Assembly: GCA_009712635.1 (NCBI GenBank)
Contig: WASS01000012.1
Coordinates: 1-64,000 of the forward strand
Direction of reading: 5' to 3'
Length of the DNA: 64,000 nucleotides
Source of the DNA: Hungatella sp.
GTDB taxonomy: Bacteria; Bacillota; Clostridia; Lachnospirales; Lachnospiraceae
Of this stretch, positions 8,031-15,670 are shown one piece after another; position 1 is the stretch's first letter; the number at the start of each line of letters is the position of its first letter. The notes beneath the pieces were generated by a model that was not told the origin of the DNA, did no database searches, and worked only from the letters and a program-made list of their open reading frames with translations. The position numbers and the translations under genes are program-made.

Positions 8031-8292
8031 CCGTGCGTCTCACTTTGAACCGCTATCACAGGCGTTACCCTGACAGTTAACTCGGTCCAGGCACCCTCAC
8101 GGCACACAGAAGGTTCCACTTAGTGCTGCTGCATTCCTGCCCTGACACGGTTCATGAAGATCTGTTGCGTAAGACCCAAACGTCATCGTCACTTATCAGG
8201 GGCAGCCCTACAATAGCCGGCCCTGGGTGAGACATCACCCCTGCTGGAGCGGATTGCAGGTACAGGGCACCGCTATCTCCCCGGCTGCACGG
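8031..8292 (-). ncRNA. ffs: Signal recognition particle RNA, large Bacillus type
   Basis: The RNA scaffold of the signal recognition particle, which binds Ffh and targets nascent membrane proteins. The minus strand, about 262 bases, starts CCGTGCAGCCGGGGAG and ends GACGCACGG, and these termini pair. The Alu-domain block GGTAGCGGTGCCCTGTACC is nearly identical to B. subtilis scRNA. The S-domain apical loop reads TGAACCGTGTCAGG, then GGAATGCAGCAGCACTAAG. The Ffh-binding region and the GACGTTTGGGTC block are also conserved. The ends are set by terminal pairing and may differ by a few bases after processing. Confidence 0.96.
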
Positions 8293-9626: not shown

Positions 9627-9655
9627 AGGGGGCTTTTTCAGCCCCCTACTTTTAT
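9627..9655 (+). terminator. Intrinsic terminator after nrdG-like gene
   Basis: AGGGGGCT and AGCCCCCT form a perfect 8-bp stem with a five-base loop, followed by TACTTTTAT. It overlaps the last codons and stop of the convergent DUF6128 gene and is nearly symmetric, so it may act on both strands. Confidence 0.75.
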
Positions 9656-11347
9656 ATCGGTATACCAGAATCCAAAACGTCCATCTTCCATTGGCTGATC
9701 TTTTGACAGTACAAAATTAGGAAAACCGAACATAGATGCCATATATCGTTCGTTGCTGTAATAATGTCCCGGAATTCCCAGCAGATAGCGGGGAGATCCT
9801 TCTGTGTTAAGCCTTGCGAGGATCAGATACCGGTAATTGTAGTAACCATGCAATAAGAAACTGTTATTTCCATATACCCAGGCATCTCTGGGAAGAAGAC
9901 CGATATCCTGAGGTTTGATCGTCAGAATTTCACACCCGTCTTCATAATCAAACGCCAGAATCCTGGTATGCTCTTTTCTTAATTTTTCCCAGATCGCACT
10001 ATGTTGATTTTCTTCCTGACTTTCATTTTCGCGCAAATGTTCCAATACCTCTGGATCACCAAGCTTTGGTTCCGTATGGTCTTGGTTTTTAGTTTCTTTT
10101 ATTACGGCATCTGCGCGGTATAAACGGGTAGTTCCTGCTTCGGGCTCAAGAAATACATCTGTGTCCTCCGCCAGGCCTGCATCGCCCGAACTCATCTGAA
10201 CAGATTCTTTTAATCCGCCATCTTCAGCTTCAGACATCATGGGCTTTGGCATTAAGGGAACAGATTCCTGCTGACTTTGTAAAACGGTCTGAGTCTCTTC
10301 GGAAGGTTCTGTATGTACGGACTCTGCAGTCATGGGTACTGTTGGCGTCGGTCCCGTTGGACGTGGCGTTGGAGATGCAGCGCCGGTTGGGTTCGTTACA
10401 GGAGACATTGACCCTGTCGGCATGGTCCCTGCCGGCATTGGTGATGTGGGCATTGGTCCTGTCGGCATTGACCGTGTTGGCATTGGCCCTGTGGGCATTG
10501 ACCGTGGCATTGCACCATTAGGTATTGGCGTTGTTGGCATTGACCCATTGGGCATCGGGGCTGTCGGCATTGGTCCGGTAGGACGTGGTTCCTGCCACCA
10601 GCCAGGAACTGGTCCAGTCATGGTCGGGCGAGTATTTTGCTGTCTATCCGGTGCAGGCGCAGTGACTGAAGGCGGATTCCCCTGCCTCCCTCCTGCTGTG
10701 GGACCGGTCACTGTGGTTCTGGTATTTCCACCTTGCGGTATGGAACCTGTCATCTGCTGGATCTCAGGCATGAGACTTTCGGCCTGCGGGCTTGGCTCAC
10801 TGTCGGATGACACCGGACTTTCCGCCTGGAGAAGAACCTCTTCTTCATTTTTTGTATCCTGACTGTCCCCATCTTCCAGTGGAAACTCTTTTTCTATCTC
10901 CTGAACAGCTTTTTTAATCTGTTCTTCCGATATGGCAGAATTTTCTTTTACAGCAGAATCTGTATTTTCCAGATCAACTGCCGCTGCATGAGCAACTGCA
11001 TCCTCCCATATGGTGGTATAAGATCTCCATGTATTTTTTACATCATGTATGGTCAGTCCAAAACATTGGTCCATGTTAAAACCGGAACGTTCAATATCAT
11101 TTACGGATACTGTGGCTCTGAATTCACCGGAACCGCCTCGTATGAAAATATTTCCAAGGTATATTTCCTGTTCTCCGGCCAATAGATATACTCCAATGTC
11201 GTTACCGCCTACATAGATTCTTTTCACACTTACCGTAATTTTGCACTGGATTCCTCTCGTCTCTATCTTGGCAAATCCGATGTTTTTTCCTTTGACTCCG
11301 CCTTCGTAGGCATAAATATATGAGATTAGTCTTCGATAGTTAGACAT
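9638..11347 (-). CDS. DUF6128-type protein with Pro-Met repeat linker
   Basis: A 569-residue protein of unknown function, resembling Lachnospiraceae DUF6128 proteins. Residues 1-125 form a beta-rich N-terminal domain (YIYAYEGGVKGKNIGFAKIE). Residues about 240-345 are a low-complexity linker of repeated PMPTG/PMPxS units, rich in Met, Pro, Thr and Gly. Residues about 455-569 form the conserved C-terminal domain (AWVYGNNSFLLHGYYNYRYL, then GIPGHYYSNERYMASMFGFP). No signal peptide or membrane span is seen, so it is probably cytoplasmic. The ORF on the opposite strand over the repeats is a compositional shadow. Confidence 0.7.
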   Translation of the reverse strand: MSNYRRLISYIYAYEGGVKGKNIGFAKIETRGIQCKITVSVKRIYVGGNDIGVYLLAGEQEIYLGNIFIRGGSGEFRATVSVNDIERSGFNMDQCFGLTIHDVKNTWRSYTTIWEDAVAHAAAVDLENTDSAVKENSAISEEQIKKAVQEIEKEFPLEDGDSQDTKNEEEVLLQAESPVSSDSEPSPQAESLMPEIQQMTGSIPQGGNTRTTVTGPTAGGRQGNPPSVTAPAPDRQQNTRPTMTGPVPGWWQEPRPTGPMPTAPMPNGSMPTTPIPNGAMPRSMPTGPMPTRSMPTGPMPTSPMPAGTMPTGSMSPVTNPTGAASPTPRPTGPTPTVPMTAESVHTEPSEETQTVLQSQQESVPLMPKPMMSEAEDGGLKESVQMSSGDAGLAEDTDVFLEPEAGTTRLYRADAVIKETKNQDHTEPKLGDPEVLEHLRENESQEENQHSAIWEKLRKEHTRILAFDYEDGCEILTIKPQDIGLLPRDAWVYGNNSFLLHGYYNYRYLILARLNTEGSPRYLLGIPGHYYSNERYMASMFGFPNFVLSKDQPMEDGRFGFWYTDIKVGG

Positions 11348-11464
11348 GCCACCACTCCTTTATCACTATTTTATGCAAAATGGCATTGCATCTATGACAT
11401 AAAAATGATATCCTAATGAAAGAATAAAATAAAAATTTTTTCCCAAATATGGAGGATGATAAAA

Positions 11465-12199
11465 ATGAAGCTCTACCGTGCAAAAGACTACTATGACATG
11501 AGCCGAAAAGCAGCCAATATTATATCTGCCCAGATCATTATGAAGCCGAACTGTGTTCTGGGACTTGCTACCGGTTCCACACCTGTAGGTGCCTACAAAC
11601 AGCTGATTGAATGGTACAACAAAGGTGACTTGGATTTTTCCCGGGTAAAAACAGCAAACCTTGATGAATACAAGGGATTAACCAGAGATAATGACCAGAG
11701 TTACTACCACTTTATGAAGCAGAATTTATTTATGCACGTAAATATCGAGGTAACCAATACTCATATACCTGATGGTATGGAATCAGATGCAGAAAAAGAA
11801 GCTGCCAGATATGAAGAGATTCTCAGAAATCTGGGCGGCATTGACTTACAGATTCTTGGACTTGGTCATAATGGGCACATCGGATTTAATGAGCCTTCCG
11901 ATATCTTCCCAAAAGATACCCACATTGTTGACTTACAGGAAAGCACCATTGAAGCAAACAAGCGTTTTTTTGAATCTGCAGATCAGGTTCCGCGCCAGGC
12001 TTATACCATGGGAATCGGTACAATTATTAGAGCGAAAAAAATCCTGTTAATGGTAAGCGGCGAAGATAAGGCTGAAATTCTGCATGATGCCCTTTGCGGT
12101 CCGGTAACCCCAAAAGTTCCTGCTTCTATTCTGCAGCTCCATCCGGATGTAATTATTGTAGCCGATGAAGCAGCTCTGTCAAAATGGGAAACGAACTAA
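11465..12199 (+). CDS. nagB: Glucosamine-6-phosphate deaminase
   Basis: A 244-residue enzyme that converts glucosamine-6-phosphate to fructose-6-phosphate and ammonia in amino-sugar catabolism. Family motifs are LGLATGSTPVGAYKQL (phosphate loop), NLDEYKGL with the catalytic Asp, LGLGHNGHIGFNEP with the catalytic His, and the late MVSGEDKAEIL. The ATG at 11465 is chosen: GGAGG (11451-11455) stands nine bases before it, whereas the ATG at 11456 abuts the site. No nagA lies next to it. Confidence 0.96.
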   Translation: MKLYRAKDYYDMSRKAANIISAQIIMKPNCVLGLATGSTPVGAYKQLIEWYNKGDLDFSRVKTANLDEYKGLTRDNDQSYYHFMKQNLFMHVNIEVTNTHIPDGMESDAEKEAARYEEILRNLGGIDLQILGLGHNGHIGFNEPSDIFPKDTHIVDLQESTIEANKRFFESADQVPRQAYTMGIGTIIRAKKILLMVSGEDKAEILHDALCGPVTPKVPASILQLHPDVIIVADEAALSKWETN

Positions 12200-12201
12200 T
12201 C

Positions 12202-12230
12202 TTGACGTAAATAGCTTACAATGATATAAT
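12202..12230 (+). promoter_or_regulatory. Consensus sigma-A promoter of the ABC-2 leader
   Basis: TTGACG (12202-12207), a 17-base spacer and a perfect TATAAT (12225-12230) start two bases after the nagB stop. Transcription would begin near 12237, about ten bases before a very strong ribosome site. Confidence 0.85.
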
Positions 12231-12249
12231 GAGTTAAATTTTTTAAAGG

Positions 12250-12390
12250 AGGTGAGACGCTGTGGGAAATATATCTATTAAAGCTACTTCATTATGGACT
12301 AATATTAATAATATCTCTGCAGTTTTCGGTAATTTTGACGCGTCCGTGTATCAGTGCGCCCATTTTTACGAAAAAGGCAGCGTCTCATCT
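12250..12390 (+). promoter_or_regulatory. Candidate structured leader RNA: 14-bp long-range helix around a leader ORF
   Basis: Bases 12250-12263 (AGGTGAGACGCTGT) can pair with 12377-12390 (GCAGCGTCTCATCT) over 14 consecutive positions, including two G-U pairs. The 5' arm contains part of the ribosome site and the first bases of the leader ORF; the 3' arm lies inside its last codons. A further GCGTC at about 12341-12345 could compete for the 5' arm. With the downstream terminator this resembles an attenuator or riboswitch. No known riboswitch class was recognised. Confidence 0.5.
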
Positions 12391-12414
12391 GAAAATTATT
12401 CTGTTAGCCGGTAG
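12262..12414 (+). CDS. 50-residue putative leader peptide
   Basis: A short ORF starting with GTG and ending in TAG. It is preceded by AAAGGAGGTGA, a near-perfect anti-16S match nine bases upstream, and by its own consensus promoter. The peptide starts MGNISIKATSLW and ends SENYSVSR, with one cysteine near residue 32. No signal peptide or membrane span is evident, and I recognise no family. Its position between a strong promoter and an intrinsic terminator ahead of an ABC transporter suggests a regulatory leader peptide, as in B. subtilis bmrB-bmrCD. It could instead be an ORF fortuitously open across a structured RNA. Confidence 0.5.
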   Translation: MGNISIKATSLWTNINNISAVFGNFDASVYQCAHFYEKGSVSSENYSVSR

Positions 12415-12446
12415 GTTTTACCACTGGTTTTTCGGTTGATTTTCCG

Positions 12447-12474
12447 CCCGGATGCTCCTGCACCGGGTTTTTTT
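12447..12474 (+). terminator. Intrinsic terminator/attenuator upstream of the ABC-2 operon
   Basis: CCCGG and CCGGG arms plus an inner TGC/GCA pair (one bulged A) form an 8-bp stem with loop TCCT, followed by seven T. It lies 80 bases before the first permease gene and after the leader ORF, with no other obvious promoter in between. CCGGT at the end of the leader ORF (12408-12412) is complementary to ACCGG in the 3' arm and could act as part of an antiterminator. Confidence 0.8.
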
Positions 12475-12553
12475 GTGTGTTTTTTTCGAAATGGCAGTCT
12501 GAACGGACTTTTTCCACTTTGATTCTAGACACACAATATGGAGGATATGACCT

Positions 12554-13384
12554 ATGAAACGAGTAAAAACCATTCTGTCCGGCTGCGGCTCTCTCTCAAG
12601 AGCTGTATGCTCCACAACTTTAATCTGCTCCAAACAAATTTTTGACGGAGGCTTTCTCTGTGTAGCTGGAGGATACGTTGTCCAGATAGTCCAGTTTATT
12701 ATGCTGACCTTTATCTGGAAGACTTTGGCAGAAACTAATGCTCTGCCAGCAAACGTATCATTAGACCAGTTAATGACCTACACGCTGATGTCTGCCGTAT
12801 TACATGAGGAATTAAATATTATCTCTCCCGCCACTTCGTCCTTGTGGGAGGGATCCGTCATTGGGCGTTTTTTAAGGCCCATGGCAATTGAAGCAAGCTT
12901 TATTTCAGAAACCATTGGCCGATTCTGGGTTCCCAACTTCTTATTTCTGGGTATTCCATTATTGCTTTTTGCACCGGTTCTGTCTGTCAGTCCGTTGCCT
13001 GCTTCTTTTCGCATGGGAATTCTCTCTCTCATAAGTCTGCTGCTGGCAATTTGTATTGGATTTGCCATAGATTTGCTGTTCGCTTCTCTTGCAATGAATC
13101 TGAAAAATGGATGCTTTGCGGCTCTTGCTGTCAGAGAGGCAGTTTATTCCCTGCTTTCCGGAGAAATGATACCATTTTCTTTATTTCCAAAAAAATTGGG
13201 AACGCTTTTTTCCCTGCTTCCGTTGGGCTCAGTTGCCCATGGACCTTTAACTATCTACACTGGCACCGCCCATCTCCCTTATAGGGTTCTGGCGCTTCAG
13301 TTTTTCTGGGCTGTTAGTTTATGGGCTCTTGCAATTTACGTATTTAATAAAAGTAAAGAAAGGATGATCTCTTTTGGTGGATAA
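12554..13384 (+). CDS. ABC-2 type transporter permease subunit 1
   Basis: A 276-residue membrane protein with about six hydrophobic segments, resembling the COG4587 permease family found next to COG3694 and COG4586 genes. A possible reentrant segment follows residue 50. It would form the membrane channel with the next gene and be driven by the ATPase at 14188. The substrate is unknown; drug or lipid-like export is usual for this class but unproven. GAGG stands upstream of the ATG. Its end overlaps the next gene by about 11 bases, so translation is probably coupled. Confidence 0.8.
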   Translation: MKRVKTILSGCGSLSRAVCSTTLICSKQIFDGGFLCVAGGYVVQIVQFIMLTFIWKTLAETNALPANVSLDQLMTYTLMSAVLHEELNIISPATSSLWEGSVIGRFLRPMAIEASFISETIGRFWVPNFLFLGIPLLLFAPVLSVSPLPASFRMGILSLISLLLAICIGFAIDLLFASLAMNLKNGCFAALAVREAVYSLLSGEMIPFSLFPKKLGTLFSLLPLGSVAHGPLTIYTGTAHLPYRVLALQFFWAVSLWALAIYVFNKSKERMISFGG

Positions 13385-14234
13385 TTTTAAAATACTAATC
13401 AGGCTTTACAGGCAATATGCAAAAATGGATTTATTATGGTTTCTGCGGGATACCCGTTATTTCTTTATTCAGCTGGTCTCTGATGTTGTAAGCGGTGGGT
13501 GCACCATAGCTGGTGTCTGCCTGTTATCCGCAAACTTTAAAAACTTTTCCGGTATGACCCAAAATGAAATTTTATTTATGATGGGTTACGCTCTCTTTAT
13601 TGACGGTATATTCATGGTATTTTTTATGGGCAATAATACCGGCATGGTCAGCCGGATTATTGGCAGGGGACAGCTTGACCACATTATGATTCAGCCCGTC
13701 CCTCTGTGGGCAGAACTTCTGGCACAGGGTTTTTCCCCTGTTTCCGGTTCTCCCATAATGATTTTTGGAACTGGGCTTACTGTTTACGGTGCCATCAGAG
13801 CTGGTTTACCTATAAACGCTTTTACTATACTGCTGTTCCTTTTTTACAGCATTTGCTCGATTGTCATTGTGATGTCATTTATCTATCTGATTTCCTGTTC
13901 AGCATTCTATGCCCCTGCTGCTGCAGAGGAAATCGCCGGGGTGGGCAAGGAATTATTTTCTTCATTAAAAACTTACCCGCTGGGTAATATGAAAGGTTTT
14001 CAAAAGCACATTTTTTTGTCCTTGATTCCTGTGGGCCTTTGTGCCTGGCTTCCTTCCACACTTTTAATAAACGCTGGGAAATATGGATTAGAGGCAGTTT
14101 TCGTTCCGAAAGCGCTCTACCTGCCTATTGCAGCTGCAATTTTTTCATTTATAGCAATTATCACATTTAAGAAAGGAATGAAATATTATGAAACCTATGG
14201 TTCTCCAAGATACTCCGGCTTTGGCCATCGATAA
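13374..14234 (+). CDS. ABC-2 type transporter permease subunit 2
   Basis: A 286-residue membrane protein with about six hydrophobic segments and no ATP motifs. It resembles the COG3694 permease that pairs with the COG4587 permease. The start is uncertain: TTG at 13374 is best spaced from AAAGGA, and GTG at 13377 is the alternative; no ATG is near. Both overlap the end of the first permease. Its end overlaps the ATPase start by 47 bases, so the three genes form one tightly packed operon. Confidence 0.8.
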   Translation: MVDNFKILIRLYRQYAKMDLLWFLRDTRYFFIQLVSDVVSGGCTIAGVCLLSANFKNFSGMTQNEILFMMGYALFIDGIFMVFFMGNNTGMVSRIIGRGQLDHIMIQPVPLWAELLAQGFSPVSGSPIMIFGTGLTVYGAIRAGLPINAFTILLFLFYSICSIVIVMSFIYLISCSAFYAPAAAEEIAGVGKELFSSLKTYPLGNMKGFQKHIFLSLIPVGLCAWLPSTLLINAGKYGLEAVFVPKALYLPIAAAIFSFIAIITFKKGMKYYETYGSPRYSGFGHR

Positions 14235-15198
14235 TATAACAAAAGAATATTGCCAGTGGCAGAGAAGCGGCAACGCCCGCGACATTATTAAAAACCTTCT
14301 TCACCCGGAAAAGCGTGTAGTAACTGCTCTTGATCACATATCACTTCAGATAAAGAAGGGGGAATTCGTTGCTTATGCAGGTGCCAATGGTGCCGGTAAA
14401 AGCACTACAATAAAAATTCTTTCCGGAATCCTCATGCCTACAGAGGGAACGGTATCTGTACTGGGATTAAATCCCGCCAAAGACCGGGTCAAACTCATGA
14501 GCCATATCGGAGTCCTGTTTGGCCAGCGTACAGAATTATGGTGGGACCATCCGGTGATATCCAGCTTCCAATGGAAAAAGGAGGTATGGAACATTCCGGA
14601 TTCCGTTTACAAAGAGAACCTGGAGATGGTTACAGATCTTTTGGATCTTTCTGATATTCTAAAAACCTTTACCAGGGAGCTGAGCCTTGGGCAGAGAATG
14701 CGGGCGGATATTGCCATGCTTCTGCTTCACAGTCCGGAACTGATTTTTCTTGATGAGCCCACGCTTGGTCTTGATGTACTTGCCAAGCAGCAGATGATCC
14801 GGTTTTTAAAGAAGATTAACCTTGAGAACAAAACAACGGTGGTGGTAACCAGTCATGATATGGACGATCTGGAGGAAATGGCCCAGAGAATCATTCTTAT
14901 TAACAAGGGGAGAATTGCATTTGACGGAGACTTTGATGAACTAAGAAATGTGATGGGAGGCTTTTACCGGATTGTCCTTACTACGGCAAAAGAAGAGCTA
15001 CCGCTTTCCATTCCGGGTATGCGGCTTTTAAAAACAGAAAGCGGAGTTCACGAATACGAATTTGACCGGAATGTATTAGGAATCCATAAGGTTATGGGGC
15101 TACTTTCTGAATTCCCTCAGATTCTTGATATGGAAATTAAAAAGGCCCCCATTGAAGATGTAGTGGCTAATTTATATCTGAGCTGGCGGGAAAATTAA
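14188..15198 (+). CDS. ABC transporter ATP-binding protein (COG4586-like)
   Basis: A 336-residue ATPase for the two ABC-2 permeases. Walker A is GANGAGKST (residues about 67-75). The Q-loop region reads GVLFGQRTELWWDHP, a variant typical of this subfamily. The signature is ELSLGQRMRADIA, Walker B is LIFLDEPTLGLD, and the switch histidine is in VVTSHD. The C-terminal 70 residues form a regulatory domain. AAAGGA stands ten bases before the ATG. It ends the operon that starts at the 12202 promoter. Confidence 0.92.
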   Translation: MKPMVLQDTPALAIDNITKEYCQWQRSGNARDIIKNLLHPEKRVVTALDHISLQIKKGEFVAYAGANGAGKSTTIKILSGILMPTEGTVSVLGLNPAKDRVKLMSHIGVLFGQRTELWWDHPVISSFQWKKEVWNIPDSVYKENLEMVTDLLDLSDILKTFTRELSLGQRMRADIAMLLLHSPELIFLDEPTLGLDVLAKQQMIRFLKKINLENKTTVVVTSHDMDDLEEMAQRIILINKGRIAFDGDFDELRNVMGGFYRIVLTTAKEELPLSIPGMRLLKTESGVHEYEFDRNVLGIHKVMGLLSEFPQILDMEIKKAPIEDVVANLYLSWREN

Positions 15199-15265: not shown

Positions 15266-15670
15266 ATGGCATACGCATTTACAAAGGATCTGGAGACCGG
15301 AAACCAGTTAATTGACTCAGAACACCGCCAGCTGATTGATGCGATCAATAATTTACTGACTGCCTGCTCCACCGGTAAAGGCCGTGCAGAACTGGCCAAT
15401 ACTACTAAGTTTTTACAGGATTATACTGCCAAGCATTTTGGAGATGAGGAAAAACTCCAGCTTCAGAGCCAGTATCCCGATTATGCAAATCACAAGCGCT
15501 ACCATGAAGAGTTTAAGAAGGTAGTTGCAGGAATCTGCCAGAAGCTCGATAAGGAAGGTCCTACCATTGCACTGGTTGGCGAAGTAAACAGTGCAATTGC
15601 AGGTTGGCTGATCAACCATATCAAAAAAGAAGATGTCAAAGTTGCAACTCACATAAAAAGCAGATCCTGA
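15266..15670 (+). CDS. Bacteriohemerythrin
   Basis: A 134-residue non-heme di-iron protein that binds oxygen. In anaerobes it is thought to scavenge or sense O2. All seven iron ligands are visible: His20, His57, Glu61, His76, His80, His118 and Asp123. The single-domain length is usual. GAGGTG precedes the ATG. It has its own promoter and terminator. Confidence 0.95.
   Translation: MAYAFTKDLETGNQLIDSEHRQLIDAINNLLTACSTGKGRAELANTTKFLQDYTAKHFGDEEKLQLQSQYPDYANHKRYHEEFKKVVAGICQKLDKEGPTIALVGEVNSAIAGWLINHIKKEDVKVATHIKSRS

Follow-up and report, generated by a model that had tools for sequence, protein, structure and literature searches.

A conserved leader with the layout of a ribosome-mediated attenuator precedes an ABC-2 exporter operon and, in related bacteria, ABC-F genes

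How is the ABC-2 exporter operon in the 64,000-nucleotide stretch of DNA analysed here (the window) controlled, and could translation of the leader in front of it decide whether the operon is transcribed? A first-pass annotation had described a promoter, a ribosome site, a 50-codon ORF, a 14-pair helix and an intrinsic terminator between the gene it named nagB and the first permease gene. By direct reading all of these elements, which make up an RNA leader 250 bases long, are at the places claimed (Table 1). The promoter has a consensus score of 11 out of 12 and is one of two promoter-like sites on the + strand within 11800-13200. The same consensus scan finds no + strand site in 12415-12600, in agreement with the statement that no separate promoter of the transporter is obvious, and a strong promoter in 12475-12554, which would make the leader irrelevant, was not seen in it. 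When the naked leader RNA is folded, a helix of 14 pairs forms between codons 39-43 of the ORF and the stretch with its ribosome site and start codon. Only 1 of 300 shuffles reaches the strength of this duplex, the long helix that we call P1. The whole leader (z -3.1; 1 of 200 shuffles equally stable) and the terminator (z -3.5; 0 of 200) are also unusually stable. A simple terminator scan did not detect the hairpin, probably on account of a bulged A.

Table 1. Features of the leader and the exporter operon in the window
Feature	Position	Strand	Remarks
Gene named nagB	11456-12199		Directly before the leader promoter; name carried over from the first-pass annotation
Sigma-70-type promoter	12202-12230	+	TTGACG-17-TATAAT (TTGACG 12202-12207, TATAAT 12225-12230); read directly, consensus scan
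Ribosome site of leader ORF	12245-12255	+	AAAGGAGGTGA; read directly
Region 1	12250-12263	+	5' arm of long helix P1; covers ribosome site and start codon
Leader ORF	12262-12414	+	GTG start, 50 codons, TAG stop
Motif M	12355-12367	+	TGCGCCCATTTTT; conserved at the RNA level, function presumed
Region 2	12377-12390	+	3' arm of P1; candidate antiterminator strand
Local hairpin at ORF end	about 12391-12444	+	Contains CCGGT 12408-12412; from folding
Intrinsic terminator hairpin	12446-12468	+	U run to 12474; starts 31 bases after ORF stop
Region 3	12450-12456	+	GGATGCT; candidate partner of region 2
First permease (perm1)	12554-13384	+	No match in Pfam; a single one in NCBIfam, far below cut-off
Second permease	13374-14234	+	PF06182 ABC2_membrane_6, 83.7 bits against 22
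ABC ATPase	14188-15198	+	Best NCBIfam match TIGR01188 drrA, below its cut-off

Two of the earlier suggestions concern the identity of the RNA and of its switch. The first-pass annotation recognised no known leader or riboswitch, and Rfam (release 15) agrees: at the gathering score nothing was found in the leader or in the loci of ten relatives. Across the whole window the sole match at that score is an SRP RNA (bacterial large SRP RNA, RF01854, at 8031-8292 on the - strand). Eight weak matches seen with a lax threshold all lie below the gathering score and were rejected; an L20 leader, with 16.8 bits where 58.7 are needed, was dropped. The proposal that CCGGT at the ORF end pairs with the 3' arm of the terminator fared less well, as the folds prefer to place CCGGT in the local hairpin at the ORF end. 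Folding thus does not favour it as antiterminator, and the 3' arm of P1 itself is the better candidate.

The genes behind the leader (12554-15198) encode two permeases and, last in the row, an ATPase; the permease with the PF06182 domain adjoins the ABC ATPase, the arrangement of an ABC-2 exporter of this kind. The ATPase resembles DrrA, below the cut-off of that family. A search of solved structures with the second permease as query gave no relative (best E 0.92), and a literature search on viologen exporters yielded nothing useful. The window gene at 15266-15670, which we take to be hemerythrin-like, has a counterpart directly after the nagB gene in a genome that lacks the exporter (L019). 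Across the nagB gene from the leader, the - strand (9638-11347) encodes a protein of 569 amino acids with a GPMPT-like repeat stretch, whose start (MSNYRRLISYIY...) is found at the same place in several relatives.

If the leader serves the exporter, as had been supposed, the two should be kept together, and they are. Leader DNA is present in 18 of 99 related genomes, namely in 17 of the 25 of the genus (the window's own included) and in one from another genus; in G018 it is divided between two contig ends, and three further genomes (G007, G040, G029) gave short matches only, without leaders. TTGAC stands upstream in all 17 of the 18 relatives that have sequence there. A perm1 gene of at least 67% identity occurs in 17 of the 25 genus genomes, the same 17 that carry the leader, so that the leader accompanies the orthologous exporter in 17 of 17 cases and is found in 0 of 8 genomes without it. 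These eight also lack a perm1 ortholog, one of them (G002) having a homologue of 27% identity.

The association extends well beyond the genus. Tracing perm1 through 397 genomes of the family gave nine homologues of at least 31% identity, every one with a leader whose ORF has 50-58 codons and whose ribosome site pairs with the 3' part of the ORF at -21 to -34 kcal/mol. A profile of the peptide, run on 397 family genomes, had matches at E<=1 in 230 of them, nearly all of which we take as chance; the seven places at E<=1.5e-5 that were used include the leaders of Hungatella (52 codons) and of two further genera. Outside the family, 392 genomes of the order hold seven strong perm1 relatives, again all with a leader, which is followed directly by perm1 in three loci and by an ABC-F gene and then the exporter in four. 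The three leaders directly before the first permease (L123, L127, L128) were missed by a first automatic screen, having a AAAGGCGG ribosome site or a long ORF, and were identified by eye. Once widened, the screen picks up all 12 known carriers and none of 30 weaker perm1 homologues (21 of the 28 weak perm1 places in the family, L116 and L129-L136); the four candidates that it gives at L076 are other frames. Two weak homologues (L084, L095) had shown ORFs with weak duplexes (-16.2 and -12.2) in the first screen. Relatives in other families thus keep the architecture with differing sequences, before the same exporter, before an ABC-F gene or sometimes before an ABC-F gene and then the exporter. 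In G078 both arrangements occur within a single genome, with a leader in front of the exporter and another in front of the ABC-F gene.

The ABC-F branch was also reached independently of the exporter. A 26-base pattern of the start region, allowing at most 2 mismatches, matches 12 of 295 genomes of the order, and the reversed pattern gave none among the matches listed. Eleven of the 12 belong to this kind of leader. Ten of the eleven precede the same ABC-F gene, and three of the ten (G514, G528, G592) had already been found via the exporter. A sample of 196 genomes from the taxonomic class gave one match to the pattern, a false one. Two matches were rejected as leaders: L149 sits at a gene that is presumably phage-like, and L161 has an ORF of 140 codons. 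A complete leader at L152 (G542:C117) is followed by short unrelated frames without ABC-F or exporter gene; the gene behind it has perhaps been lost or replaced. Searching 186 genomes with the ABC-F protein gave 15 orthologs of 63-79% identity, 13 of them with a leader, including six that had escaped the pattern search. The other two (L173, L175) have different leader ORFs (MM[NS]KS...) and weaker start-site pairing. Nine relatives at 42-49% identity also have different upstream ORFs with weaker start-site pairing. Three ABC-F relatives (L176, L177, L178; 43-49% identity) have leader ORFs of 43-48 codons that share LDRLP[MI]S..GI[TV]H, with weak start-site pairing, and possibly form a second leader family. 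Two of the ABC-F proteins were scored and reach 456 and 500 bits against a cut-off of 380 for the ribosomal-protection-like family NF000355; both stay below the cut-offs of the named subfamilies Vga, Msr, CplR, OptrA, Lsa and Sal.

Conservation of pairing was analysed in 32 leaders, 15 of the window's branch and 17 of the ABC-F branch. In 26 of the 32, no more than 15 of 300 shuffles match P1 in strength; the helix is weak against shuffles in L008, L010, L039, L040, L140 and L142 (in L142, 73 of 300 are as good). The expectation that the long helix and the terminator covary among relatives was borne out. In an alignment of all 15 leaders of the window's branch, two of which (L039, L040) end before the 3' arm of the terminator, both partners have changed in 8 of the 22 pairs of P1 and terminator, P1 accounting for 5 of the 8, and 1 of 500 shuffles is as high. 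In an alignment of 11 of the 17 ABC-F-branch leaders (L137, L139, L140, L141, L142 and L143, which do not share one register, being left out), 93.1% of the cells are paired and 7 of 29 pairs have changed on both sides, a level that 0 of 500 shuffles attain. Whichever measure is taken, at most 2 of 500 shuffles equal the covariation of either alignment.

The ABC-F branch shows most clearly how P1 and terminator may be connected. Here the strand at the ORF end (typically GATTGTTTTGAATGCC) is complementary both to the start region (GGCATGAAACAATC) and to the terminator top (GCAGACAAAACAATC). With the register fixed, region 2 matches region 3 at 10 of 10 positions in 7 of the 17 leaders, a count from a table that mis-sets region 2 in L137, L139, L142 and L143; in L160 all three strands are altered together. 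Over the 11 aligned leaders 97.9% of the cells of the helix between regions 2 and 3 are paired, against 36-50% when the strands are slid; the covariation of this helix does not reach significance (53 to 86 of 500 shuffles). In the window's branch 83.3% of the cells of this helix are paired, with no covariation. A test of the whole ORF end as duplex-forming antiterminator was noisy, and a second antiterminator test gave z < -1.64 in 11 of 32 leaders, with a mean of -1.1; L143, like L142 one of the strong exporter relatives outside the family, has no antiterminator signal. Taken with the folding results below, the candidate antiterminator has good support among the ABC-F-branch leaders and is plausible in those of the window's branch.

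Folding with ribosomes modelled as blocked stretches bears on the same question. Blocking the start region costs a leader's own terminator 5.3 kcal/mol of net stability (mean of 32 leaders). An equal stretch blocked elsewhere has a mean effect of 0.02 kcal/mol, with one outlier (L138, at -11.0), and with the start blocked and terminators swapped with those of the other branch the mean is 1.6 kcal/mol. A stricter null, in which base pairs are permuted within the same hairpin, leaves 5.1 against 2.5 for all leaders. In the ABC-F branch 16 of 17 lie above their null mean and L157 lies below its null (35/40). In the window's branch the values are 5.7 against 3.7 kcal/mol, with 11 of 15 leaders above the null mean and a single one in the top 5%; 4 of 40 permutations attain the value of the window leader. 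At equilibrium the terminator still wins when the start is blocked, with a mean pair probability of 0.81 in the window leader and 0.56 in the lowest (L138), and therefore antitermination would need the order of events during transcription. In 25 of 32 leaders the effect of a ribosome at the start is more than 1 kcal/mol larger than that of one at the stop codon. The terminator of the window leader is weakened to the same extent by either position (difference -0.3). L141 goes against the model: with the ribosome at the stop its terminator is lost (0.14). When the start of the window leader is blocked and the terminator disfavoured, region 2 pairs in the model with the terminator and motif M with the GGGU end of the latter, a fold that we regard as a candidate for the ON state.

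We consider it quite probable that the leader is a ribosome-mediated transcription attenuator with anti-antiterminator, antiterminator and terminator. P1, which pairs region 1 with region 2, would act as the anti-antiterminator. With no ribosome on the leader P1 would keep region 2 and the terminator would form; freely running ribosomes would cover region 2, and the terminator would form again. Ribosomes held at or near the start codon, be it by an inhibitor of initiation or early elongation or in a queue behind a stall, would cover region 1 and leave region 2 free to pair with the upper terminator (region 3), so that the exporter genes would be transcribed. The long ORF carries an anti-Shine-Dalgarno strand in its own 3' end, and therefore the leader should respond to occupancy of the start site. 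Ribosome-targeting drugs are the likely signal because a ribosomal-protection-like ABC-F gene shares the leader, and the pump may export the inducing drug.

Does the peptide matter by itself? In the window's branch 15 of 50 columns are invariant among 10 sequences, and for codons 2-38 pN/pS, pooled over 28 pairs from 8 leaders, is 0.59 when read in the frame of the ORF, compared with 0.86 and 1.12 for the two alternative frames, which weakly suggests that this part is read as protein under weak purifying selection. Since the peptide is conserved there, a stalling role in the window's branch is conceivable. The same conservation would fit a small functional or exported peptide that is the cargo of the pump, the terminator setting the ratio of peptide to pump mRNA and P1 dampening translation. 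We think this improbable. In codons 39-50, which contain the helix arm, pN/pS is 1.31 and there is thus no protein-level constraint at the ORF end; ORF length varies from 34 to 79 codons across leaders; the leader also stands before ABC-F genes with no adjoining pump gene seen in loci of a few kb; and the peptide has no match above cut-off in Pfam and NCBIfam. Protein searches of phages and plasmids, with one peptide each, gave no leader relatives. Motif M argues in the same direction: UGCCC[A/U]UUUU recurs before region 2 through the leaders, read in two frames; five of the 17 ABC-F-branch leaders (L139, L140, L145, L150, L160) have it in another frame. Some long ORFs (L137, L152, L158, L143) contain it more than once. 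The motif may serve as a pause site for the polymerase or as a second strand of the antiterminator. Pairing with the terminator end is possible at 4 or 5 of 5 positions in 28 of 32 leaders, a count that includes a wrong M site in L141 and L147, an overlong terminator end in L012, L015 and L016 and no M found in L157. We treat this pairing only as an idea, because M barely varies and site placement erred in several leaders.

Conservation of motif M and of the helices at the RNA level would equally suit a ligand-binding riboswitch, or a plain terminator, in which the ORF is incidental. To this we give still less weight than to an exported peptide, as the ORF is kept with some rigour: it has exactly 50 codons in 18 of 18 first-round relatives, and the frame is open in 11 of 11 pattern-found leaders (product of shuffle probabilities 3e-11, with related leaders taken as independent). 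The lack of an Rfam match points the same way. Just as unlikely, in our estimate, is an attenuator that senses an amino acid, like the trp and his leaders, with ribosomes waiting at a scarce codon of the ORF. It would share the general anatomy of leader ORF, mutually exclusive helices and terminator, but runs of at least three equal residues occur in only 4 of 32 peptides (Leu in L143 and L160, Ser in L137, Pro in L156), none of them from the window's branch; region 1 is the start site and no codon run; and the controlled genes are a drug-type exporter and an ABC-F gene, no biosynthesis operon.

The attenuator that responds to ribosomes held at the start codon is hence the reading we prefer. 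For a wider version the chances seem to us about even: the leaders would make up an unnamed attenuator family spanning the order, in which the terminator tip copies the start of the leader ORF and an internal strand chooses between start site and terminator, so that a ribosome halted at the start is sensed largely regardless of the peptide, and which drives a paired defence of ABC-F protein and ABC-2 exporter, together or apart. A search of the open-access journal literature by title and opening of the abstract found neither the leader nor such a family among the matches listed. If the reading is right, it would connect the exporter of Lacrimispora, Hungatella and their relatives with antibiotics that target the ribosome, and a leader class defined by sequence could be used to find drug-inducible ABC-F and exporter genes. 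Mimicry of the start site would also explain how inhibitors of the start stage are sensed without a dedicated stalling peptide, and it gives clear predictions for reporter tests.

Ribosome-mediated attenuation of resistance genes has been described before, and we compare the leader with four systems as far as the accessible part of each report describes them. Listeria hflXr/rli80 likewise has three alternative RNA structures and a short ORF over the anti-antiterminator; in that account the ORF has 14 codons with an RLR stall motif, and RLR is absent from all 32 leader peptides here (PMC6310831). Bacillus subtilis bmrB-bmrCD shares a long translated leader ORF, an intrinsic terminator, an antiterminator (here a candidate) and a downstream ABC multidrug exporter (PMC4191407). 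The bmrB terminator lies inside the ORF, whereas the window terminator lies past the stop, and therefore the window leader is not filed as bmrB-type. Unlike bmrCD, the exporter here consists of two permeases, one with PF06182, and an ATPase, and the start-site helix present here is not described for bmrB in the part of the report available (PMC4191407). Closest are B. subtilis vmlR (PMC9226507) and Clostridioides difficile cplR (PMC10201436), in which, according to the accessible text, a ribosome stalled on an ORF of 3 codons prevents the anti-antiterminator or 5' hairpin. By its sequence the window leader resembles this type in having a promoter, a translated leader ORF, a terminator before the gene, no other promoter, and an anti-antiterminator (P1) that overlaps the start of the leader ORF. 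In cplR a 5' hairpin sequesters the ORF (MRI), stalling allows an antiterminator, and an ABC-F resistance gene lies downstream; the cplR terminator is described as also hiding the ribosome site of cplR, whereas the GGAGG of the permease here (12540) is about 70 bases past the hairpin (PMC10201436). With vmlR the leader shares an anti-antiterminator, an antiterminator (here a candidate) and a terminator, an ORF within the anti-antiterminator, presumably a stalled ribosome that prevents the anti-antiterminator, and, in the ABC-F branch, the downstream ABC-F gene (PMC9226507). In the available account of vmlR the ORF (MIN) has 3 codons rather than 34-79, the Shine-Dalgarno sequence is single-stranded before SL-1 and not, as here, held in a helix whose other arm is inside the same ORF, and a pause hairpin with mapped pause sites takes the place of what is only an idea for motif M (PMC9226507). 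Unlike what is described there for vmlR, the target of the leader here can be an ABC-2 exporter (PMC9226507).
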